A DNA stretch of 64,000 bases from positions 1,681,501 through 1,745,500 of the forward strand of contig NZ_CP022110.1 of assembly GCF_000730165.1 (NCBI RefSeq). The letters run 5' to 3'. The notes beneath the pieces were generated by a model. That model was not told the origin of the DNA. It saw only the letters and a list, made by a program, of their open reading frames with translations, and did not search any database. The stretch is from Nitrospirillum viridazoti CBAmc (lineage in GTDB: Bacteria; Pseudomonadota; Alphaproteobacteria; Azospirillales; Azospirillaceae). The translations under genes were made by a program, and so were the position numbers. Position 1 is the first letter of the stretch. Each line of letters opens with the position of its first letter. Positions 19,570 to 26,122 of the stretch are shown here, in pieces.

Positions 19570-20583
19570 TTACGCCACCGTTACCAGATGGGTGCCGTCC
19601 TCCCGGGCTTGGAATTGGATATCCCGATCCAGGAAACGGCGGATGATGGCGGCACCGGTCAGGCTGTGCTGCGTCGGCCGCACGGTGGTGAAACAACCGC
19701 CGCCGGCCAGCGCCAGGGGCAACAGCAGCTGATCCGCCAGATAGGGCCCAGCGAAGGCGCCCGAGGCGATGTAGCCCGCCAGGCGGTTGGCCGTCTGGCG
19801 GCCGATATCCTCGGCCCGCAGGCCAATGCGGCCCACGGCGCTGACCACCTCCGTCACTTGGTCGAAGCAGGCCGACAGCATCAGGATGTTGCCGGGTCCC
19901 CGCCCCTCCGCCACCGTCTCAACGGCCCAGGCCTCATCCGGCCAGCCCAGCACTTGGCGGGCGGCCGCTACCTCCCGTTCCGCGATGTTGGCTGGCAAGT
20001 TGGACAGCAGCGCCCGGCCGCGCACCCCGCGCAAGGCGCCCCGCTCCACAAGCTCCTGAGGCCGCAGGGGGCCCGGAGTCACCGACACCTCGATGCGCCC
20101 GCCCCCAACGGGATAGAAGCCCGGGCGAACCAGGCTGGCCGTCACCGTCGGCCCCATACGCGACAGCAACGGCAACAAGGTGGCCGCTGTGAAATCGTAG
20201 GGCGGTGCCGCATGGGCGTGCGTCCCGCCCTCCAATACCAGGCGTGACGGGCCATCCGCCAGCAACAGGGGCGGCAGCAGCGCCTGAAGCACCAGGCCCG
20301 TGCTGCCCGCCGTGCCCACGGCGAAGGTGTAGTCGCCCGCCCTCACCCGGCCCGGCGTGAAGGTCAGGCAGGATGCGCCGATGGCCGCCCCGTCGGCGGT
20401 GGCGCCGCTGATGGCGCACGCCGCCTCCACCGCCGTCAGATGCTGGCGCATCAGGCCGGGTTTCTCCCGCTTGGCGCGGATGTTGTCGATGCGGAACGCC
20501 TGGCCTGTCACCAGCGACAAGGACAGGGCGGTGCGCAGCACCTGCCCACCCCCTTCGCCTTCCGATCCATCAATGATGATCAC
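19570..20583 (-). CDS. rtcA: RNA 3'-terminal phosphate cyclase RtcA
   Basis: A 337-residue RtcA, standard length. It starts MIIIDGSEGEGGGQVLRTALSLS. The segment LADQLLLPLALAGGG and the active-site His in PTQHSLTGAAI (residue ~306; H309 in E. coli RtcA) are intact. It converts RNA 3'-phosphates to 2',3'-cyclic phosphates using ATP. It lies 73 bp after rtcB on the same strand and is the last gene of the rsr-Y RNA-rtcB-rtcA operon. The rtcB-rtcA gap contains a second, in-frame copy of the rtcB tail. Confidence 0.96.
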   Translation of the reverse strand: MIIIDGSEGEGGGQVLRTALSLSLVTGQAFRIDNIRAKREKPGLMRQHLTAVEAACAISGATADGAAIGASCLTFTPGRVRAGDYTFAVGTAGSTGLVLQALLPPLLLADGPSRLVLEGGTHAHAAPPYDFTAATLLPLLSRMGPTVTASLVRPGFYPVGGGRIEVSVTPGPLRPQELVERGALRGVRGRALLSNLPANIAEREVAAARQVLGWPDEAWAVETVAEGRGPGNILMLSACFDQVTEVVSAVGRIGLRAEDIGRQTANRLAGYIASGAFAGPYLADQLLLPLALAGGGCFTTVRPTQHSLTGAAIIRRFLDRDIQFQAREDGTHLVTVA

Positions 20584-20614: not shown

Positions 20615-20692
20615 CTACCCCTTCATGCCCAGGACCTGCTTCCCCGTGTGAAGGCGTCAGCCTTTCACACACAGGACCTGCTTCAACGTATG
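20615..20692 (-). repeat. Tandem duplication of the rtcB 3' end
   Basis: The true rtcB end encodes HTLKQVLCVKG and a TGA (20657-20692). Right after it, in the same frame, 20615-20656 encode HTGKQVLGMKG and a TAG. The block GAAGCAGGTCCTG is identical in both. This is a diverged tandem copy of about 40 bp, outside the normal reading frame end. Readthrough of the TGA would add 13 residues. Confidence 0.8.
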
Positions 20693-21883
20693 AACGATCT
20701 CCACCAGGTCGGCCTGCGCCGCCATGACGGCCTCGATGGGCTTGTAGGCGGCCGGCGTCTCATCGATGACGTCGGCGTCCTTGCGGCACTCCACCCCCTC
20801 GGTCGCGTGGGCGTGGTCCTCCAGCGTGAAGCGCCGCTTGGCCTCATGCCGGGACATCAGGCGCCCGGCCCCGTGGGAGCAGCTGTTGAACGCCTCCGCG
20901 TTCCCCTTGCCGCGCACGATAAAGGACTTGGCGCCCATGGATCCGGGGATGATGCCCATCACCCCACTGCCTGCGTTCACCGCCCCCTTGCGGGTGACCA
21001 GGACGTTTCGGTCGAAATGACGCTCCCGCTGGACGTAGTTGTGGTGGCAGTTGATGGCCTCCATCGCCGCGTCGAACGGCTTGGTGATGACGGTGCGCAT
21101 CGCGGCGATGACGTTGGTCATCATCATGCGCCGATTCAGCGCGGCGAAATCCTGGGCCCAGCCCACCGCCTCGACATAGTCGTTGAAGTGGTCAGTGCCC
21201 TCGGGGAAGTAGGCCAAATCCTCATCCGGCAAATTGATGAACCAGCGGCGCATATCCTTCTTCGCCAGCTCGATGAAGAAGGTGCCGATGGCGTTGCCGA
21301 TCCCGCGCGATCCGGAATGCAGCATCACCCACACCTGGCCCGCCTCATCCAGGCACAGCTCGATGAAGTGGTTACCGGTGCCCAGCGTCCCCAGATGCAC
21401 CAGCGTGTTGGCGCCGGCCAGCTTGGGATACTTGGCGGTGATGCCGGCGAAGCGCTCGGCCAGGGTGCCCCACGCCGCCACGATGTCGGCGGGCGGGTCA
21501 CCCCAGGAACCGCTGTCGCGCCGGCCGCGCCCCACATCCCGGCCATGGGGCACCGCGCGCTCGATAGCCGTGCGCAGCCCGGCCAAATTGTCCGGCAGGT
21601 CGGCGGCCGCCAACGAGGTGCGGGCCGCCATCATGCCACAGCCGATGTCCACCCCCACCGCCGCCGGAATGACGGCGCCCAGCGTGGGAATGACGGAACC
21701 AACAGTGGCGCCGATTCCGACATGGACGTCGGGCATGGCCGCCACATGCTTGAACACGAAGGGCATACGCGCCACCCGCGCCAGCTGGGCACGGGCCTGG
21801 TCGTCCACGGCCACGCCCTTGGTCCACATCTTGATGGGCACGGCGCCATCGGCCACCGTCACCTCGAAGCCATGTTCAGTCAT
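20657..21883 (-). CDS. rtcB: RNA-splicing ligase RtcB
   Basis: A 408-residue RtcB, exactly the E. coli length. It carries IKMWTKGV near 17, VGVDIGCGMMA near 76 (metal Asp and Cys), GTGNHFIE near 168, HSGSRGIGN near 189, and SHGAGR at 336-341 with the guanylylated His at 337. It joins 2',3'-cyclic- or 3'-phosphate ends to 5'-OH ends using GTP and Mn2+. The frame is open far upstream, through the Y RNA array, but that part is not protein-like. GAAGGA with 7-nt spacing supports the ATG at 21883; the ATG at 21889 is a near alternative. Confidence 0.97.
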   Translation of the reverse strand: MTEHGFEVTVADGAVPIKMWTKGVAVDDQARAQLARVARMPFVFKHVAAMPDVHVGIGATVGSVIPTLGAVIPAAVGVDIGCGMMAARTSLAAADLPDNLAGLRTAIERAVPHGRDVGRGRRDSGSWGDPPADIVAAWGTLAERFAGITAKYPKLAGANTLVHLGTLGTGNHFIELCLDEAGQVWVMLHSGSRGIGNAIGTFFIELAKKDMRRWFINLPDEDLAYFPEGTDHFNDYVEAVGWAQDFAALNRRMMMTNVIAAMRTVITKPFDAAMEAINCHHNYVQRERHFDRNVLVTRKGAVNAGSGVMGIIPGSMGAKSFIVRGKGNAEAFNSCSHGAGRLMSRHEAKRRFTLEDHAHATEGVECRKDADVIDETPAAYKPIEAVMAAQADLVEIVHTLKQVLCVKG

Positions 21884-21926
21884 GGTCATTTCCTTCAAGT
21901 CCTTCATATCTCTAACAGCGCACGGC

Positions 21927-22050
21927 AAAAGTGGCGACGAGGGAGTGCGAGAAACGGCACATGCTCTACCTATTGAGCTACAGGCACCGGAAGGTAGGCG
22001 CCCGGCCGGACTCGAACCGGCAACCCTGTAGTTCCCCGCGGCATTCGCCC
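21927..22050 (-). ncRNA. Y RNA-like unit F: permuted tRNA-like module with complete D arm
   Basis: Minus strand, 124 nt. Basal stem GGCGA/TCGCC (22049-22045 with 21937-21933), internal loop ATGCC / nine bases ending CCCTCG, second helix GCGGGGAAC/GTTTCTCGC. Then a tRNA in permuted order: anticodon-stem-like TACA, variable GGGTT, T arm GCCGG-TTCGAGT-CCGGC (22021-22005), acceptor 3' strand CGGGCGC, loop, acceptor 5' strand GTGCCTG, TA, complete D arm GCTC-AATAGGTA-GAGC, A, then TGTG pairing TACA. A T4 follows. This is the YrlA-type design (Ro stem replacing the anticodon loop). It ends 43 bp before the rtcB start. Confidence 0.85.
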
Positions 22051-22073
22051 GGAAATCCGCACTCAGCAAAATC

Positions 22074-22107
22074 AAAAACGGTATCGGCGGGATTGGGACA
22101 TTCGCCG
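22074..22107 (-). ncRNA. Unit E: solitary Ro-box remnant with hairpin
   Basis: Minus strand. It contains the array motif as GGCGAATGT but no T arm or D arm. A small hairpin (CGGCG with CGCCG, 13-nt loop) is followed by ATACCGTTTTT. It may be a deleted unit or a terminator-like spacer between units D and F. Confidence 0.35.
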
Positions 22108-22118
22108 GCGCCAACGAC

Positions 22119-22261
22119 AAAAACGAGGCGACGAGGTGGTGTGGGAAACAGGGGCTGCATGCTCTGCTGCTGAGCTACGCGCCCGGCCCCGAATGGGCCT
22201 GGCGCGGCCGGACTTGCACCGGCGACCTTGCAGGTGACGGAGTTCCCCACGGCATTCGCCC
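22119..22261 (-). ncRNA. Y RNA-like unit D: near-complete permuted tRNA
   Basis: Minus strand, 143 nt. Basal stem GGCGA/TCGCC, internal loop, second helix GTGGGGAAC/GTTTCCCAC. Inside, in order: anticodon-stem 3' strand CTGCA, 5-nt variable loop AGGTC, T arm GCCGG-TGCAAGT-CCGGC (22223-22207), acceptor 3' strand CGCGCC plus A, a capping hairpin (GGCCC, loop ATTCG, GGGCC), acceptor 5' strand GGCGCG, TA, complete D arm GCTC-AGCAGCA-GAGC, A, and anticodon-stem 5' strand TGCAG that pairs with CTGCA. The Ro-binding stem stands exactly where the anticodon loop would be. T5 follows. Its first 25 nt closely match unit F, so the two are paralogues. Confidence 0.88.
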
Positions 22262-22277
22262 GGAAGATGCATCCTGG

Positions 22278-22430
22278 AAAAAACGGTGCCGACGACGAGG
22301 GATGGCCAGACAATGACTGAGCTATCCAGCCATCCCAGAGAATGGACCGGAGGCGGAATTGAACCGCCGACCTCCCGCCTTGCGACGGGCGCTCTACCTG
22401 TAGTCCGGCCAGCATTCGCCAGCGCCGCTC
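22278..22430 (-). ncRNA. Y RNA-like unit C: tRNA permuted through the D loop
   Basis: Minus strand, 153 nt. Basal stem GAGCGGCGCTGGCGA pairs with TCGTCGGCACCGTTT (one mismatch, several G-T), running into T6. Next helix TGGCC/GGCCA. Inside, in order: D-arm 3' half GGTAGAGC, an anticodon-arm-like hairpin (22389-22374), T arm GGCGG-TTCAATT-CCGCC (22368-22352), acceptor 3' strand TCCGGTC, a 13-nt loop, acceptor 5' strand GGCTGGA (7 pairs with two G-T), TA and D-arm 5' half GCTCAG. GCTC can pair with GAGC across the Ro stem. The break point is thus in the D loop, unlike units D and F. Confidence 0.75.
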
Positions 22431-22454
22431 GCGTCGGAAAGCACGACGGCCAAG

Positions 22455-22549
22455 CCGCCGGTGACAAGGGGAATGGGGAGGTTAGCGGAGTCGAACCGCA
22501 GGCCTTTCGGCCCTTCCTGACATGGACTCCCCACCGCATTCACCGGCGG
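22455..22549 (-). ncRNA. Y RNA-like unit B: compact form with T arm, no D arm
   Basis: Minus strand, 95 nt. Basal stem CCGCCGGTGA/TCACCGGCGG (10 bp, perfect), internal loop ATGCGG / TTCCCCTTG, second helix TGGGGAG/CTCCCCA. Inside are a GNRA hairpin GGCC-GAAA-GGCC (22512-22501) and a T-arm-like hairpin GCGG-TTCGACT-CCGC (22499-22485). There is no D-arm sequence. The basal stem reads GGTGA/TCACC where the other units read GGCGA/TCGCC, a compensatory change. Confidence 0.75.
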
Positions 22550-22566
22550 TGACCGAAGACGGACGG

Positions 22567-22721
22567 GCTGGGTCGTGGCGACCAGGGGGGATGGAACCGC
22601 CCTTTGAGCTATCTTTTCCAAGGCGGGCTCGAACCGCATCTCCCCTCCCTCGCAGGCTGGGCGCTCTACCACGGGCTTTCTGTGGAAGATGTAGTTCCAT
22701 CAGCATTCGCCACGACCCAAC
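22567..22721 (-). ncRNA. Y RNA-like unit A, just after rsr
   Basis: Minus strand, 155 nt, starting 12 bp after the rsr stop. Basal stem GTTGGGTCGTGGCGA/TCGCCACGACCCAGC (15 pairs, one G-T), internal loop ATGCT / CCCCCTGG, second helix GATGGAAC/GTTCCATC. Inside: D-arm 3' half GGTAGAGC, a GC-rich stretch resembling a decayed anticodon arm, T-arm-like hairpin GCGG-TTCGAGC-CCGC (22637-22623), a mini-hairpin CTT-GGAA-AAG in place of the acceptor, and D-arm 5' half TAGCTC. The permutation is as in unit C, with a shortened acceptor. Confidence 0.75.
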
Positions 22722-22733
22722 GCATCATCCCGG

Positions 22734-24278
22734 TCAGACGACCGTCGCGCTCACCTCCGCAACCCAATCCCGATCTGATCCGCCGGCGGCGAAACGGGCC
22801 AGGGTTTCGAACACGGCGTCGGAGAAGCCGCCGACGTTCAGCACGTCGGGGCGCTCCACCGCCTGGGTGGTGCCATAAGGCTGCAAGTCGATGCAGACCA
22901 GCTTGGCCCGGGGGCAGCGCCGCTTCAGGCGTTCCCACTCCTGCATCGTCGCAGTGGCGCCTTGGCGCCGGGCGTCGACCCAGGACTGGTTGTCCGAAAC
23001 GATCACCACCAGGTCCGCCACCGCCCGCTGCGCGTTCAGCAAGGCCAGCGGGGCGGATACGGTGGTGCCACCGCCGCCGATGGCGGCCAGTTTGGCGGCG
23101 TTCACCGATACCGGGGCCCGGGGGTCCAGGTCCAGCGGCACCACCTTGGTCTCGAACGGCAGCACCAGGGCGCCGGGGTTGCGCCGCATCACCGCCGCCG
23201 CCACCAGGGCGGCGACATCGATGCAGCGCACCGCCGTCGTCGCCCCCTTGCGGTGGCCGGTGATGGGACTGGTCATGGACCCCGACACGTCGGGGCACAC
23301 CACCACCCGGCCGGGCAGAACCGGCACCGACGCCAGCGACAGCTCCAGCGCCGTTTCCAGCGCCGCCGCCACCACCGGCGGCACGTCCTTGCCCACCATG
23401 CCCCGCGCCGCCATCAGCTGATAGGGCAGAACACGGGCCTTGGCGATGGCGTCGGCGTCCGCCAGCCGCGCCGCCACCCGCTCCGCCAACCCCTCCACCG
23501 CGAACGCGCCGTGGCGCGCCAGGGTGTTCAGGTTCATGCGCAGCGCCTGCCAGCCCATACGGTCCGCCATCTCCGCCCATTGCGCGGGCGTCAGCGGCTC
23601 CGCCGTCAGCCATTCGAAGGGCACCGGCGGCAGGGGCAGCGAACGGTCCCGTTTCCAGGCCTCGAACGCCGCGACCTCCGCCGGCAGGGCCGCCACGTCG
23701 TACGGCTTGCCGATCAACCAGCCGTAGAAGGCGCGGGCGGTCGCATCGACCGGCTTGGGGTGCACCATCTTGACGATATCGGCCAGTGATGGGTCGCTGC
23801 CCGTCGCCGCTCGCATCAACTGCGCCATCGACGCCTGCTCCAGCCACTGGGTCACCAGACGCTTGGGTCGCGTCCCCAGGGAGGTGCGGCCCACCGCGCC
23901 CGACCGCATGATCTGCACGAAGGTGCGCAGCATGCGGCCATTGTCGATGACGCGGCGGAACACGGCCACCGACAGGTCGGGATCGGCCACGGTCAGCCAG
24001 GCGGTCAGCAGCGCCGGCATGTCCTTCATCACGCCCTTGGTGCGGGCATAGACGGCGGCCTGGGCCACGAAGCGCGGGTCAACCGCCTTCGCCACGGCCA
24101 GCACCTCGGCCAACTGGGCCTCGGCCGTGCCGTAGAAGCCGTCATTCAGCGTGCCGGTGGCCGCCAGTTGGGCCAGCGTGTGCTCCGGACCATAGCTGTA
24201 GGCCGGCGCGCCCTCACGATTGCGCGCATCCGGCATCAGTTTCGCGATCATCGACGCGAACAGCTGCTTGTTGGCCAT
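22734..24278 (-). CDS. rsr: Ro60-like TROVE-domain protein Rsr
   Basis: A 514-residue Ro-family protein. An N-terminal HEAT-like TROVE ring (about 1-310, starting MANKQLFASMIAKLMPDAR) precedes a vWA domain whose MIDAS motif DVSGSM sits at 330-335. The ring binds Y RNAs on its outer face and misfolded RNA ends in its hole. The ATG at 24278 has AGGAG at 8-nt spacing; a GTG three codons upstream is rejected. The gene is first in the sigma54-driven operon, followed by the Y RNA array, rtcB and rtcA, the same order as rsr-yrlBA-rtcBA of Salmonella. Confidence 0.94.
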   Translation of the reverse strand: MANKQLFASMIAKLMPDARNREGAPAYSYGPEHTLAQLAATGTLNDGFYGTAEAQLAEVLAVAKAVDPRFVAQAAVYARTKGVMKDMPALLTAWLTVADPDLSVAVFRRVIDNGRMLRTFVQIMRSGAVGRTSLGTRPKRLVTQWLEQASMAQLMRAATGSDPSLADIVKMVHPKPVDATARAFYGWLIGKPYDVAALPAEVAAFEAWKRDRSLPLPPVPFEWLTAEPLTPAQWAEMADRMGWQALRMNLNTLARHGAFAVEGLAERVAARLADADAIAKARVLPYQLMAARGMVGKDVPPVVAAALETALELSLASVPVLPGRVVVCPDVSGSMTSPITGHRKGATTAVRCIDVAALVAAAVMRRNPGALVLPFETKVVPLDLDPRAPVSVNAAKLAAIGGGGTTVSAPLALLNAQRAVADLVVIVSDNQSWVDARRQGATATMQEWERLKRRCPRAKLVCIDLQPYGTTQAVERPDVLNVGGFSDAVFETLARFAAGGSDRDWVAEVSATVV

Positions 24279-24361
24279 GGTCCTCACTCCTCTCTCCTGG
24301 GGGCTGTCGCCCCAAGGGCCGCCGGCACATTCCGGCGGCCCCGATCCGATGCAGGGATATA

Positions 24362-24529: not shown

Positions 24530-26122
24530 GTGTCCCGCCCCCTCACCGTCATCGGCTTCCTGGGCTCCACCCTGGACGCCGCCAAGTTCGGGCCCAGCCG
24601 CTGGCAGAAGTGGCGGCCCAGCGTGGGTATCTGCATGCATGAGGATTTGCGGGTGGACCGCTTCGTGCTGCTGCATGGGGAGCGGCACGGCCGCCTGGCC
24701 GAGCAGGTGGTGGAGGACATCCGCACCGTCTCCCCCGAGACGACGGTGGAACAGCGCACCCTAGGCTTCACCAACCCGTGGGACTTCGAGGAGGTCTACG
24801 GCAAACTGTTGGACTTCGCCCGCGCCTTCCCGTTCGAGCCGGAGCGCGAGGACTACCTGATCCACATCACCACCGGCACCCACGTCATCCAGATCTGCCT
24901 GTTCCTGCTGACGGAGGCGCGCTTCCTGCCCGGCCGCCTGTTGCAGACCCAGCCGGCGCGCGGCGAAGGCCTCAACCCCGCCGGGGAATGGAGCAGCATC
25001 GATCTGGACCTGTCGCGCTATGACAGCATCGCCACCCGCTTCGCGGCAGCGGCGGCGGAAGGGTCCTCCTTCCTAAAATCCGGCATCGAGACGCGCAACG
25101 CCGCCTTCAACCGCATGGTGGATGAGATCGAGCGTGTGGCCCTGCGCAGCCGCGCCCCCTTACTGCTGATGGGCCCCACCGGCGCCGGCAAGAGCCACCT
25201 GGCCCGCCGCGTTTATGAGCTGAAGCGCCTGAAGCACCAGGTGGCCGGCCCCTTCGTGGAGGTGAACTGCGCCACCCTGCGGGGTGAGGGCGCCATGTCC
25301 GCCCTGTTCGGCCACCGCAAGGGCGCCTTCACCGGCGCCGTCAGCGACCGGCCTGGCCTGCTGCGCGCGGCCGACACCGGCATGCTGTTCCTGGATGAGA
25401 TCGGGGAGTTGGGCCTGGACGAGCAAGCCATGATCCTGCGGGCCATTGAGGACAAGCGCTTCCTGCCCGTGGGCTCGGACAAAGAAGTGGCGTCGGATTT
25501 CCAGCTGATCGCCGGCACCAACCGCGATCTGGGCGCCGCCGTGGCCAAGGGCGCCTTCCGCGATGATCTCTACGCCCGCCTGAACCTGTGGACCTTCACC
25601 CTGCCCGGCCTCAGCGCCCGGCGGGAGGATATCGAGCCCAACCTCGACTATGAACTGGACCGCCATGCCCAGCGCGACGGCCAGCGCGTGACCTTCAACA
25701 AGGAGGCGCGGGCGCGCTACCTGGCCTTCGCCACTGGGCCGGAGGCCCCCTGGCCAGGCAATTTCCGGGACTTGGGGGCCAGCGTCACCCGCATGGCCAC
25801 CCTGGCCCCCTCGGCACGCATCGACCAGGACACGGTGGAACAGGAGATTACCCGCCTGCGCCGCCTGTGGGCCCCCGCCGCGACAGACGATGGCCTGGCG
25901 GCGCTGCTCACGCCCGATGCGTTGGATACCCTGGACCCGTTCGAGCGGGTGCAGTTGGCCGAAGTGGTCCGTGTCTGCCGCGCCTGCCGCAGCCTGTCGG
26001 AGGCAGGACGTCTATTGTTCAGTGCCTCCCGCACCCGCCGCACGTCATCCAACGACGCGGACCGGCTGCGGAAGTATCTGCAGCGGTTCGGGCTGGAGTG
26101 GGCGGTCCTGGCGGGGGCCTGA
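24530..26122 (+). CDS. rtcR: RtcR: CARF-domain sigma54 activator of RNA repair
   Basis: A 530-residue regulator. Residues 1-180 are the RtcR CARF-like sensor (MSRPLTVIGFLGSTLDA). The AAA+ domain has Walker A GPTGAGKS at 215-222, the sigma54-contact loop GAFTGA at 265-270 and Walker B FLDEIGE at 287-293. A C-terminal HTH lies near 475-520. In enteric bacteria the sensor responds to damaged tRNA or RNA with 2',3'-cyclic phosphate ends and activates rtcBA. It is divergent from rsr across 251 bp holding the sigma54 promoter. The start is GTG with only a weak ribosome site. Confidence 0.95.
   Translation: MSRPLTVIGFLGSTLDAAKFGPSRWQKWRPSVGICMHEDLRVDRFVLLHGERHGRLAEQVVEDIRTVSPETTVEQRTLGFTNPWDFEEVYGKLLDFARAFPFEPEREDYLIHITTGTHVIQICLFLLTEARFLPGRLLQTQPARGEGLNPAGEWSSIDLDLSRYDSIATRFAAAAAEGSSFLKSGIETRNAAFNRMVDEIERVALRSRAPLLLMGPTGAGKSHLARRVYELKRLKHQVAGPFVEVNCATLRGEGAMSALFGHRKGAFTGAVSDRPGLLRAADTGMLFLDEIGELGLDEQAMILRAIEDKRFLPVGSDKEVASDFQLIAGTNRDLGAAVAKGAFRDDLYARLNLWTFTLPGLSARREDIEPNLDYELDRHAQRDGQRVTFNKEARARYLAFATGPEAPWPGNFRDLGASVTRMATLAPSARIDQDTVEQEITRLRRLWAPAATDDGLAALLTPDALDTLDPFERVQLAEVVRVCRACRSLSEAGRLLFSASRTRRTSSNDADRLRKYLQRFGLEWAVLAGA

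Follow-up and report, generated by a model that had tools for sequence, protein, structure and literature searches.

Predicted Y RNA-like units with four kinds of tRNA-like module between rsr and rtcB in Nitrospirillum viridazoti CBAmc

On the minus strand of an RNA-repair locus of Nitrospirillum viridazoti CBAmc, the gene of the Ro60 orthologue Rsr (rsr) is followed by ~830 bp with no credible gene, then by rtcB and rtcA, which raises the question of what this gap encodes. The stretch analysed here (the window) comprises 64,000 nucleotides of contig NZ_CP022110.1 (positions 1,681,501 to 1,745,500), with position 1 its first letter. We read the gap as an array of conserved units bearing four tRNA-like modules, and predict that these units are Y RNAs docking on Rsr, each of which would show partner enzymes another face of tRNA; we place the probability of this reading at about 0.6. 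That figure combines a structural part, in which we are highly confident, with a functional part, modelled from known biology, to which we give somewhat less than even odds. The novelty looks to reside in the anatomy of the units, not in the array as such.

Six copies of the box GGYGAATGY are found on the minus strand at 22711, 22544, 22420, 22260, 22106, and 22049, exactly where an earlier interpretation made from the letters alone (the sequence-only reading) had located them. Over the whole window the motif is unremarkable (7 found against 3.4 expected, with 6 of 100 shuffles reaching 7); what is remarkable is the presence of six boxes in 671 nt on one strand. Five of them open a unit, as had been proposed, with these units termed U1, U2, U3, U4, and U6, and the box at 22106 opens no folded unit. 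A separate basal stem closes each of the five, and every one also has individual 5' and 3' boxes, the common frame consisting of 5' box, second helix, and 3' box; the basal helix and conserved boxes are seen in U1, U2, and U3 through the alignments A4, A5, and A2, respectively, and in U4 and U6 through alignment to the YrlA frame. Against dinucleotide shuffles, the expected folding signal is present in U1, U2, U3, and U4 (z scores of -2.15, -3.42, -3.76, and -2.12) and absent from U6 (-0.91) and the stretch at 22106 (+0.02). No Rfam family matches the window at its gathering score, with the YrlA model (gathering score 69 bits) giving 62.0 bits for U6, 42.5 for U4, 25.6 for U3, and 24.8 for U1, and no match for U2 or the 22106 box (U5), such that a search with this family recovers four units, all below its cut-off. 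As judged from the alignments described below, the five units carry four different tRNA-like modules (classes A, B, C, and D) on one frame, in agreement with the suggestion that units of several structurally distinct kinds lie between rsr and rtcB.

Class A, represented in the window by U3 (22291-22420), is predicted to adopt a complete tRNA fold that has been circularly permuted so as to open in the D loop. From 5' to 3', a class A unit consists of the Ro stem, helix 2, G18 G19 .. A21 with the 3' strand of the D stem, an anticodon stub, the variable region AGGUC, the T arm, a loop-closed acceptor arm, UA, the 5' strand of the D stem, A14 G15, helix 2, and the Ro stem, with position names assigned from the usual tRNA numbering. 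The Ro stem is thereby predicted to enter the D loop with A14-G15 on one side of it and G18-G19 on the other. In U3, alignment A2 places the 3' half of the D loop and the 3' strand of the D stem (GGTAGAGC) at 22391-22398, the anticodon-arm stub CCCGUC-GCAA-GGCGGG at 22374-22390, the T arm GGCGG-TTCAATT-CCGCC at 22352-22368, the acceptor arm, closed by a loop in place of open ends, at 22325-22351, and the 5' strand of the D stem (GCTC), with TA before and AG after as in tRNA, at 22319-22322; the stub and the acceptor arm are also identified by the rotation test described below.

Alignment A2 contains 22 of the 23 distinct units returned by our finder (L133:7090 was left out), with 96.6% of cells in its drawn structure of 32 pairs able to pair, compared with 84.9% in shuffles, none of 500 of which was as good by any measure. 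Sliding the partners lowers pairing to 38-53%, and RNAalifold, when not supplied with the structure, returns the identical 32 pairs. Both sides have changed in 18 of the 32 pairs, and these compensatory changes argue that selection acts on the permuted fold. Covariance models were made of class A (R1) and class B (R2) and searched over 91 bacterial sources, with L048 and L049 left out as the same loci as L058 and L059. R1, which gives U3, one of its build rows, 112.2 bits, yields 376 matches of every unit kind at E <= 1, with 48 rows from 43 sources scoring at least 74 bits and the next at 71.6. Among the 26 of these rows outside A2, 25 were parsed by landmarks (L110 being mis-parsed, and L096, with GGAGC against GCCC, remaining unparsed), and 24 of the 25 pair at all four positions of the D stem, in the forms GAGC/GCUC, GCGC/GCGC, GAAC/GUUC, and GAGC/GCUU.

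The resemblance to tRNA was assessed by running all circular rotations of each class A body through ARAGORN, the 48 rows being reduced to 47 (L093 is the same locus as L050) and then 46 (the body of L110 could not be cut). A sense-strand tRNA is called in 42 of the 46 rotated bodies, U3 among them, compared with none of 46 in native order and none of 46 after base shuffling, performed once each. The cuts that work fall in the acceptor segment, between T stem and D stem, in 428 of 438 cases; for 39 of the 42 called units every working cut lies there, and in the other three a few reach into the final bases of the T stem. In the same test, a tRNA is called in 1 of 34 class B, 0 of 12 class D, and 0 of 2 class C units. 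The loops predicted to cap the anticodon stubs of class A are mostly of four bases (35 of 46, comprising GCAA, GAAA, CUUG, UUCG, and others) and of seven bases in just 1 of 46, such that these units would be mimics lacking a usable anticodon. Placed in tRNA order, the 73 nt of U3 score 83.5 against the best host tRNAs (tRNA-Thr and tRNA-Ala), with the 48 host tRNAs scoring a mean of 88.3 (minimum 65.5) against their best other isotype, and shuffled U3 a mean of 48.9 (maximum 59.5) against host tRNAs. In native order, neither ARAGORN nor Rfam finds a tRNA gene in the window; at its relaxed setting, ARAGORN makes a single odd tRNA-Leu-like call on native U3.

Class B is represented by U1 (22577-22711, with its basal stem extending to about 22571-22720), which carries a split D arm, an x-x' helix, an anticodon stub, a T arm, and a P-P' pairing, and which R2, with U1 among its build rows, scores at 111.3 bits. 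Alignment A4 is formed of 20 units, being 13 of the 15 units found by the class B pattern (L075 and L083 were left out) and seven picked by eye; of the 28 pairs proposed by RNAalifold, 25 were kept and three leader pairs dropped. In A4, 98.0% of cells are paired, compared with 93.2% after shuffling, 10 pairs have changed on both sides, and 0 of 500 shuffles is as good. The D stem is split here too (AAGC/GCUU in 14 rows, GAGC/GCUC in 5, GAGC/GCUU in 1), and the adjoining x-x' helix can form in 19 of the 20 rows, one of its positions being occupied variously by C-G, U-A, and A-U, and 0 of 2000 shuffles matching it. Furthermore, in P-P', bases after ACUACA would pair with the loop following the T arm (UGUC/GACA, UCCA/UGGA, CUCCA/UGGAG, UGGC/GCCA); on the 20 rows of its discovery this pairing is equalled by 0 of 1000 shuffles, as it is on the 29 distinct combinations from all 34 rows. 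Since P-P' crosses the D stem, it would constitute a probable pseudoknot in the place of the acceptor stem. Over the 91 sources, R2 finds 34 units of at least 83 bits (the next being 64.2), all in Sphingomonadales, Nitrospirillum, or genome G123.

U4 (22122-22262) and U6 (21928-22051), which form class C, are predicted to have the known topology of YrlA. When aligned to YrlA, both display a T arm, a capped acceptor, a closed D arm, and a Ro stem replacing the anticodon stem; this anatomy is not that of U1 and U3, where the D stem closes around other arms, or of U2, which has no D arm. A match of the Twister-sister ribozyme family over the T arm and D arm of U4 (22160-22238), at 26.4 bits against a cut-off of 34, was rejected as probably reflecting resemblance to tRNA. 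U2 (22460-22544), of class D, combines a GAAA-capped stub with a T arm and was placed by alignment A5, which holds 17 of 58 listed units, picked by eye, and shows 24 pairs, eight of them with changes on both sides. Class D as a whole lacks a D arm and combines a T arm with a stub ending in a tetraloop and, in most rows, a capped acceptor; its four rows from Nitrospirillum have lost the acceptor hairpin as well. U5 (22076-22106, minus strand) is a lone 5' box without structure, and is likely the remnant of a unit, given its z score and, by eye, its absence from the other three rsr-bearing genomes of Nitrospirillum.

Is such an array peculiar to this genome? rsr loci were taken from a 12-genome set, from 80 genomes (the best 80 of 568 relatives), and from 77 viral contigs, and boxes were counted by regular expression in 84 non-redundant bacterial loci, that of the window among them, whose sequence runs on for at least 1200 nt past rsr (five duplicates were removed from 89; the end of rsr in L114 was not located). 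There are 0 boxes in 1 locus, 2 in 12, 3 in 22, 4 in 22, 5 in 15, 6 in 7, 7 in 4, and 8 in 1, so that 83 of the 84 loci, mostly from near relatives, hold two to eight, with a mean of 3.9 compared with 0.07 per 2 kb elsewhere on the same strand; the pattern undercounts slightly (L047 has two by pattern and three by eye). The sequence-only reading had supposed that loci usually have one or two units and that five in a row would already be exceptional, and neither supposition holds for this branch. rtcB comes next on the same strand in 74 of the 80 loci, in 11 of the 12, and in 1 of the 77 viral loci. At the rtcB that follows the array of Niveispirillum L050, an in-frame stop codon lies in the first third, by eye.

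Within Nitrospirillum the arrays vary, reading B,D,A,C,C in L045, B,D,A,C in L046, and B,D,A in L047 (by eye). The class A unit of L047 (3278-3410) carries, by eye, the 3' flank that follows U6 in the window, on which ground units have likely been lost by recombination between 3' boxes. Class A scores above 100 bits in four of seven Nitrospirillum genomes, the same four that have rsr, with the best score in the other three being 30.9. In genome-wide R1 searches, which scored few candidates per genome, the matches listed at E <= 1e-10 among 385 genomes of the class all lie beside rsr, or beside rtcB in G217 (79% identical), and five of 398 genomes of the phylum have a match at E <= 1e-12, with rsr beside each. 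At E <= 1e-3, matches scatter over 274 of the 385 alphaproteobacterial genomes, many of them without rsr, and such weak matches were therefore not used. One weak match in the window's own genome overlies a tRNA-Lys gene (G000:C2:1051434-1051557).

Both classes A and B recur in Sphingomonadales, with class A also present in Rhizobiales and Burkholderiales. By record title, class A occurs in Sphingomonadales, Niveispirillum, Inquilinus, Labrys, Mesorhizobium, Hyphomicrobiaceae, Variovorax, Acidovorax, Undibacterium, and a Pedosphaera metagenome-assembled genome, as well as in three records titled Mycobacterium, Rhizobiales bacterium, and Bacterium; in the 77 viral rsr loci none was found, the best score being 53.3 bits. 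The record titled Mycobacterium sp. KBS0706 (L098) may be misnamed, with its Rsr 64% identical to that of the window, as is that of Inquilinus L096, and both its Rsr and its class A unit proteobacterial-looking by eye. Rhizobiales-type arrays in L104, L118, L120, L132, and L133 contain a further kind of unit, outside classes A-D, which holds GGCGCTCTCTGGCACGAGCG and has a T arm and a conserved 3' hairpin.

The genes around the array are those that the sequence-only reading had named. The rsr open reading frame (22734-24287, minus strand) matches Pfam vWA_Ro60 (6.2e-15) and TROVE (6.2e-9) and the Rsr structure 2nvo in the PDB (5.6e-15), with its product 98% identical to Rsr of Nitrospirillum sp. 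BR 11752. Beyond the array, on the same strand, lie the RNA ligase gene rtcB (20657-21886; Pfam RtcB, 9.1e-129) and the RNA 3'-phosphate cyclase gene rtcA (19570-20583; Pfam RTC, 4.8e-72), and divergent from the operon on the plus strand is rtcR (24530-26122), encoding a sigma-54 activator with an RtcR sensor domain (Pfam RtcR, 1.4e-80; Sigma54_activat, 4e-49). Upstream of rsr, a sigma-54 type promoter, TGGCACGGCCGTTGCT (24378-24363, minus strand), is the single zero-mismatch match in the whole window to TGGCACGNNNNNTGCW, a pattern we take to be the sigma-54 promoter consensus. The components of an RtcR-type RNA-repair operon (rtcR, sigma-54 promoter, rtcB, rtcA) are therefore all present by sequence, and the exact sigma-54 site together with rtcR likely places the array in the RtcR regulon. 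The RtcR of Salmonella is described as activated by damaged tRNA in the cited text of PMC7790460.

The leader of rsr contains a hairpin, GGGGCCGCCGG-AAUGUG-CCGGCGGCCCU (24315-24342, minus strand), with a loop resembling the Y RNA 5' box, and on account of this loop Rsr might bind its own leader. A similar hairpin with a GAAUG(N) loop occurs in 32 of 91 other rsr leaders examined, with its stem changing pairwise (for example, GGGGCCGCCGG/CCGGCGGCCCC and GGGGCGGCCGG/CCGGCCGCCCC), compared with three loci only in 557 kb of same-strand sequence outside the leader. Separately, in 10 Sphingomonadales loci of 92 examined (L057, L061, L062, L063, L068, L069, L070, L073, L075, and L087), a tRNA gene stands in the leader, 12-21 nt before the rsr match, eight being tRNA-Pro(UGG), one a tRNA-Trp, and one an odd tRNA-Phe. 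L125 has two other tRNAs, 110 and 264 nt away, and L074 a seemingly decayed copy (by eye). A tRNA, real or mimic, inside the rsr leader could serve as a substrate or a sensor.

How might such units act? The sequence-only reading had suggested that they may present various tRNA shapes to Ro, RtcB, or tRNA-processing enzymes, or may buffer the sensing of damaged tRNA. RtcR, on sensing tRNA damage, would turn on the sigma-54 promoter, such that the cell would produce Rsr and the array along with RtcB and RtcA. The shared frame may dock on Rsr, with one Rsr ring expected to hold one Y RNA. Class C, tethered at its anticodon end, would leave elbow and acceptor free, and class A, tethered at the D loop and elbow, would leave both stubs free and sealed; as the tether would differ in this way, different ribonucleoproteins might engage different tRNA-binding partners. 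PNPase (decay), RtcB and RtcA (repair), and tRNA-modifying enzymes are candidates, and the set of units could let Rsr meet these varied enzymes once RtcR senses broken tRNAs, leading to decay or repair. Lacking both an anticodon loop and a free acceptor end, class A would be a tRNA body that escapes cleavage in an anticodon loop and cannot be charged. There is, in our estimate, just short of an even chance that at least two permutations of tRNA serve as Y RNA modules (the anticodon-opened YrlA form and the D-loop-opened class A), alongside the split-D-arm pseudoknot and T-arm-plus-stub forms, in a cassette array amounting to an RtcR-induced kit of sealed, anticodon-less tRNA bodies through which one Ro protein addresses several tRNA-handling enzymes.

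Other explanations account for parts of these results. The units may be decoys or sponges that soak up nucleases or tRNA-binding enzymes when tRNA is damaged, Ro doing no more than stabilise them, which would suit the retention in class A of a tRNA body without a seven-base anticodon loop (45 of 46 units) and the role as competitive inhibitor raised for YrlA in the cited part of PMC7790460. We consider this unlikely, as it leaves unexplained the strictly kept Ro-side boxes and helix 2, and class D, which has no D arm. A rather slimmer chance attaches to the units being elements of the rsr-rtcB mRNA, such as a leader or attenuator sensing tRNA-binding enzymes or Rsr, instead of separate Y RNAs. 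Every unit lies between two genes of one predicted transcript, no sigma-70-like promoter or intrinsic terminator was found inside the array, and the rsr leader holds its own hairpin with a Y-box-like GAAUG loop; against this stand the individual basal stem and boxes of each of the five units and the differing unit numbers of congeners (by eye 5, 4, and 3), a variation not readily compatible with a tuned attenuator.

It is highly improbable that all the units are ordinary YrlA RNAs and that the D-loop-opened fold over-reads sequence drift. Four units do match the YrlA model weakly, and YrlA is itself described as a circular permutation of tRNA in the cited portion of the ARTEMIS paper (PMC11472068); however, RNAalifold, covariation, and rotation all yield an opening in the D loop, and in a set of 12 loci where classes A and B are each represented by 12 units, the YrlA model exceeds its gathering score for eight units, none of them of class A or B. 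It is scarcely credible that the gap between rsr and rtcB has accumulated decayed tRNA genes as its units, for despite the closeness of reordered U3 to host tRNA-Thr and tRNA-Ala (83.5, compared with 48.9 for shuffles), class A is never called as tRNA in native order and the compensatory changes support the permuted fold.

Several observations weigh against our preferred reading, in which the units are Y RNAs with differently opened tRNA modules. The 22 rows of A2 were obtained with a finder that uses D-arm complementarity, and later rows with a model that rewards pairs; the pairing shuffles for classes A and B all ignore kinship among rows; and the lowest-energy fold of U3 alone is a long 3'-side hairpin (GGGAUGGC...GCCAUCCC), not the class A fold. 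The class A bodies of L100, L094, L095, and L121 are uncalled in every rotation, U6 folds no better than shuffles (31 of 200 folding equally well), and for P-P' the 14 rows outside its discovery set supply 11 combinations, on which 20 of 1000 shuffles do as well. Additionally, the loci of the 80-genome set, being the best of 568, lean towards near relatives. Among genomes drawn evenly from the class, seven have a convincing rsr (an eighth, G416, with a 31% match over 145 residues, was not counted), and class A reaches 74 bits in two of them, the window's own (G000) and G123, such that the conservation expected in relatives is borne out by the recurrence of classes A and B and is limited in breadth.

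The cited portion of PMC7790460 leaves the roles of Rsr and the Y RNAs unaddressed, and if one operon does make several Y RNAs with differently opened tRNA modules, this set of modules offers a direct handle on those roles. A tRNA fold re-wired in two ways on one protein-binding frame would also be useful to studies of the evolution of RNA folds. Furthermore, as the Rfam YrlA model misses every class A and class B unit of the 12 loci searched with it, the results are relevant to libraries of RNA models.

Chen in 2014 reportedly found probable Y RNAs in the vicinity of Ro60 in over 250 species, with at least one per species being tRNA-like, such that the occurrence of several at one locus is not in itself novel. 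Among the matched titles and opening lines of abstracts, which cover the literature in part and provide a weak negative, none describes a Y RNA opened in the D loop. By analogy, class B may form an acceptor-like helix as a pseudoknot, as do viral tRNA-like structures such as that of turnip yellow mosaic virus. The permuted tRNA genes of algae and archaea have halves that are processed into normal tRNA. Class A resembles these genes in the rotated order of its tRNA arms (cited text of PMC3978253), but differs from them in that the permuted order is itself the conserved structure, with the acceptor sealed.

The closest relatives of the array are YrlA RNAs (RF02553; Salmonella structure 6CU1), which are modified by DusA and TruB as stated in the cited part of PMC8394870, and which similarly adjoin rsr and carry a basal stem with GGCGAAUG and GUCGCC boxes and a permuted tRNA-like module. 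U4 and U6 share the topology of YrlA but fall below the gathering cut-off of the family, whilst U1 and U3, in contrast to YrlA, are predicted to open the tRNA in the D loop instead of the anticodon and to retain a stub of the anticodon arm, U2 has no D arm, and several kinds of unit stand in one array. RYPER, a complex of Rsr, Y RNA, and PNPase, provides the model for a Y RNA that tethers Rsr to another enzyme (cited part of PMC8394870); compared with RYPER, the modules of this array are different, and the link to PNPase proposed here is by analogy. As in the rsr-yrlBA-rtcBA operon of Salmonella described in the cited text of PMC7790460, rtcR, rsr, Y RNAs, rtcB, and rtcA are found together, with YrlB and YrlA of that operon contrasting with five units of four predicted kinds in N. 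viridazoti CBAmc.

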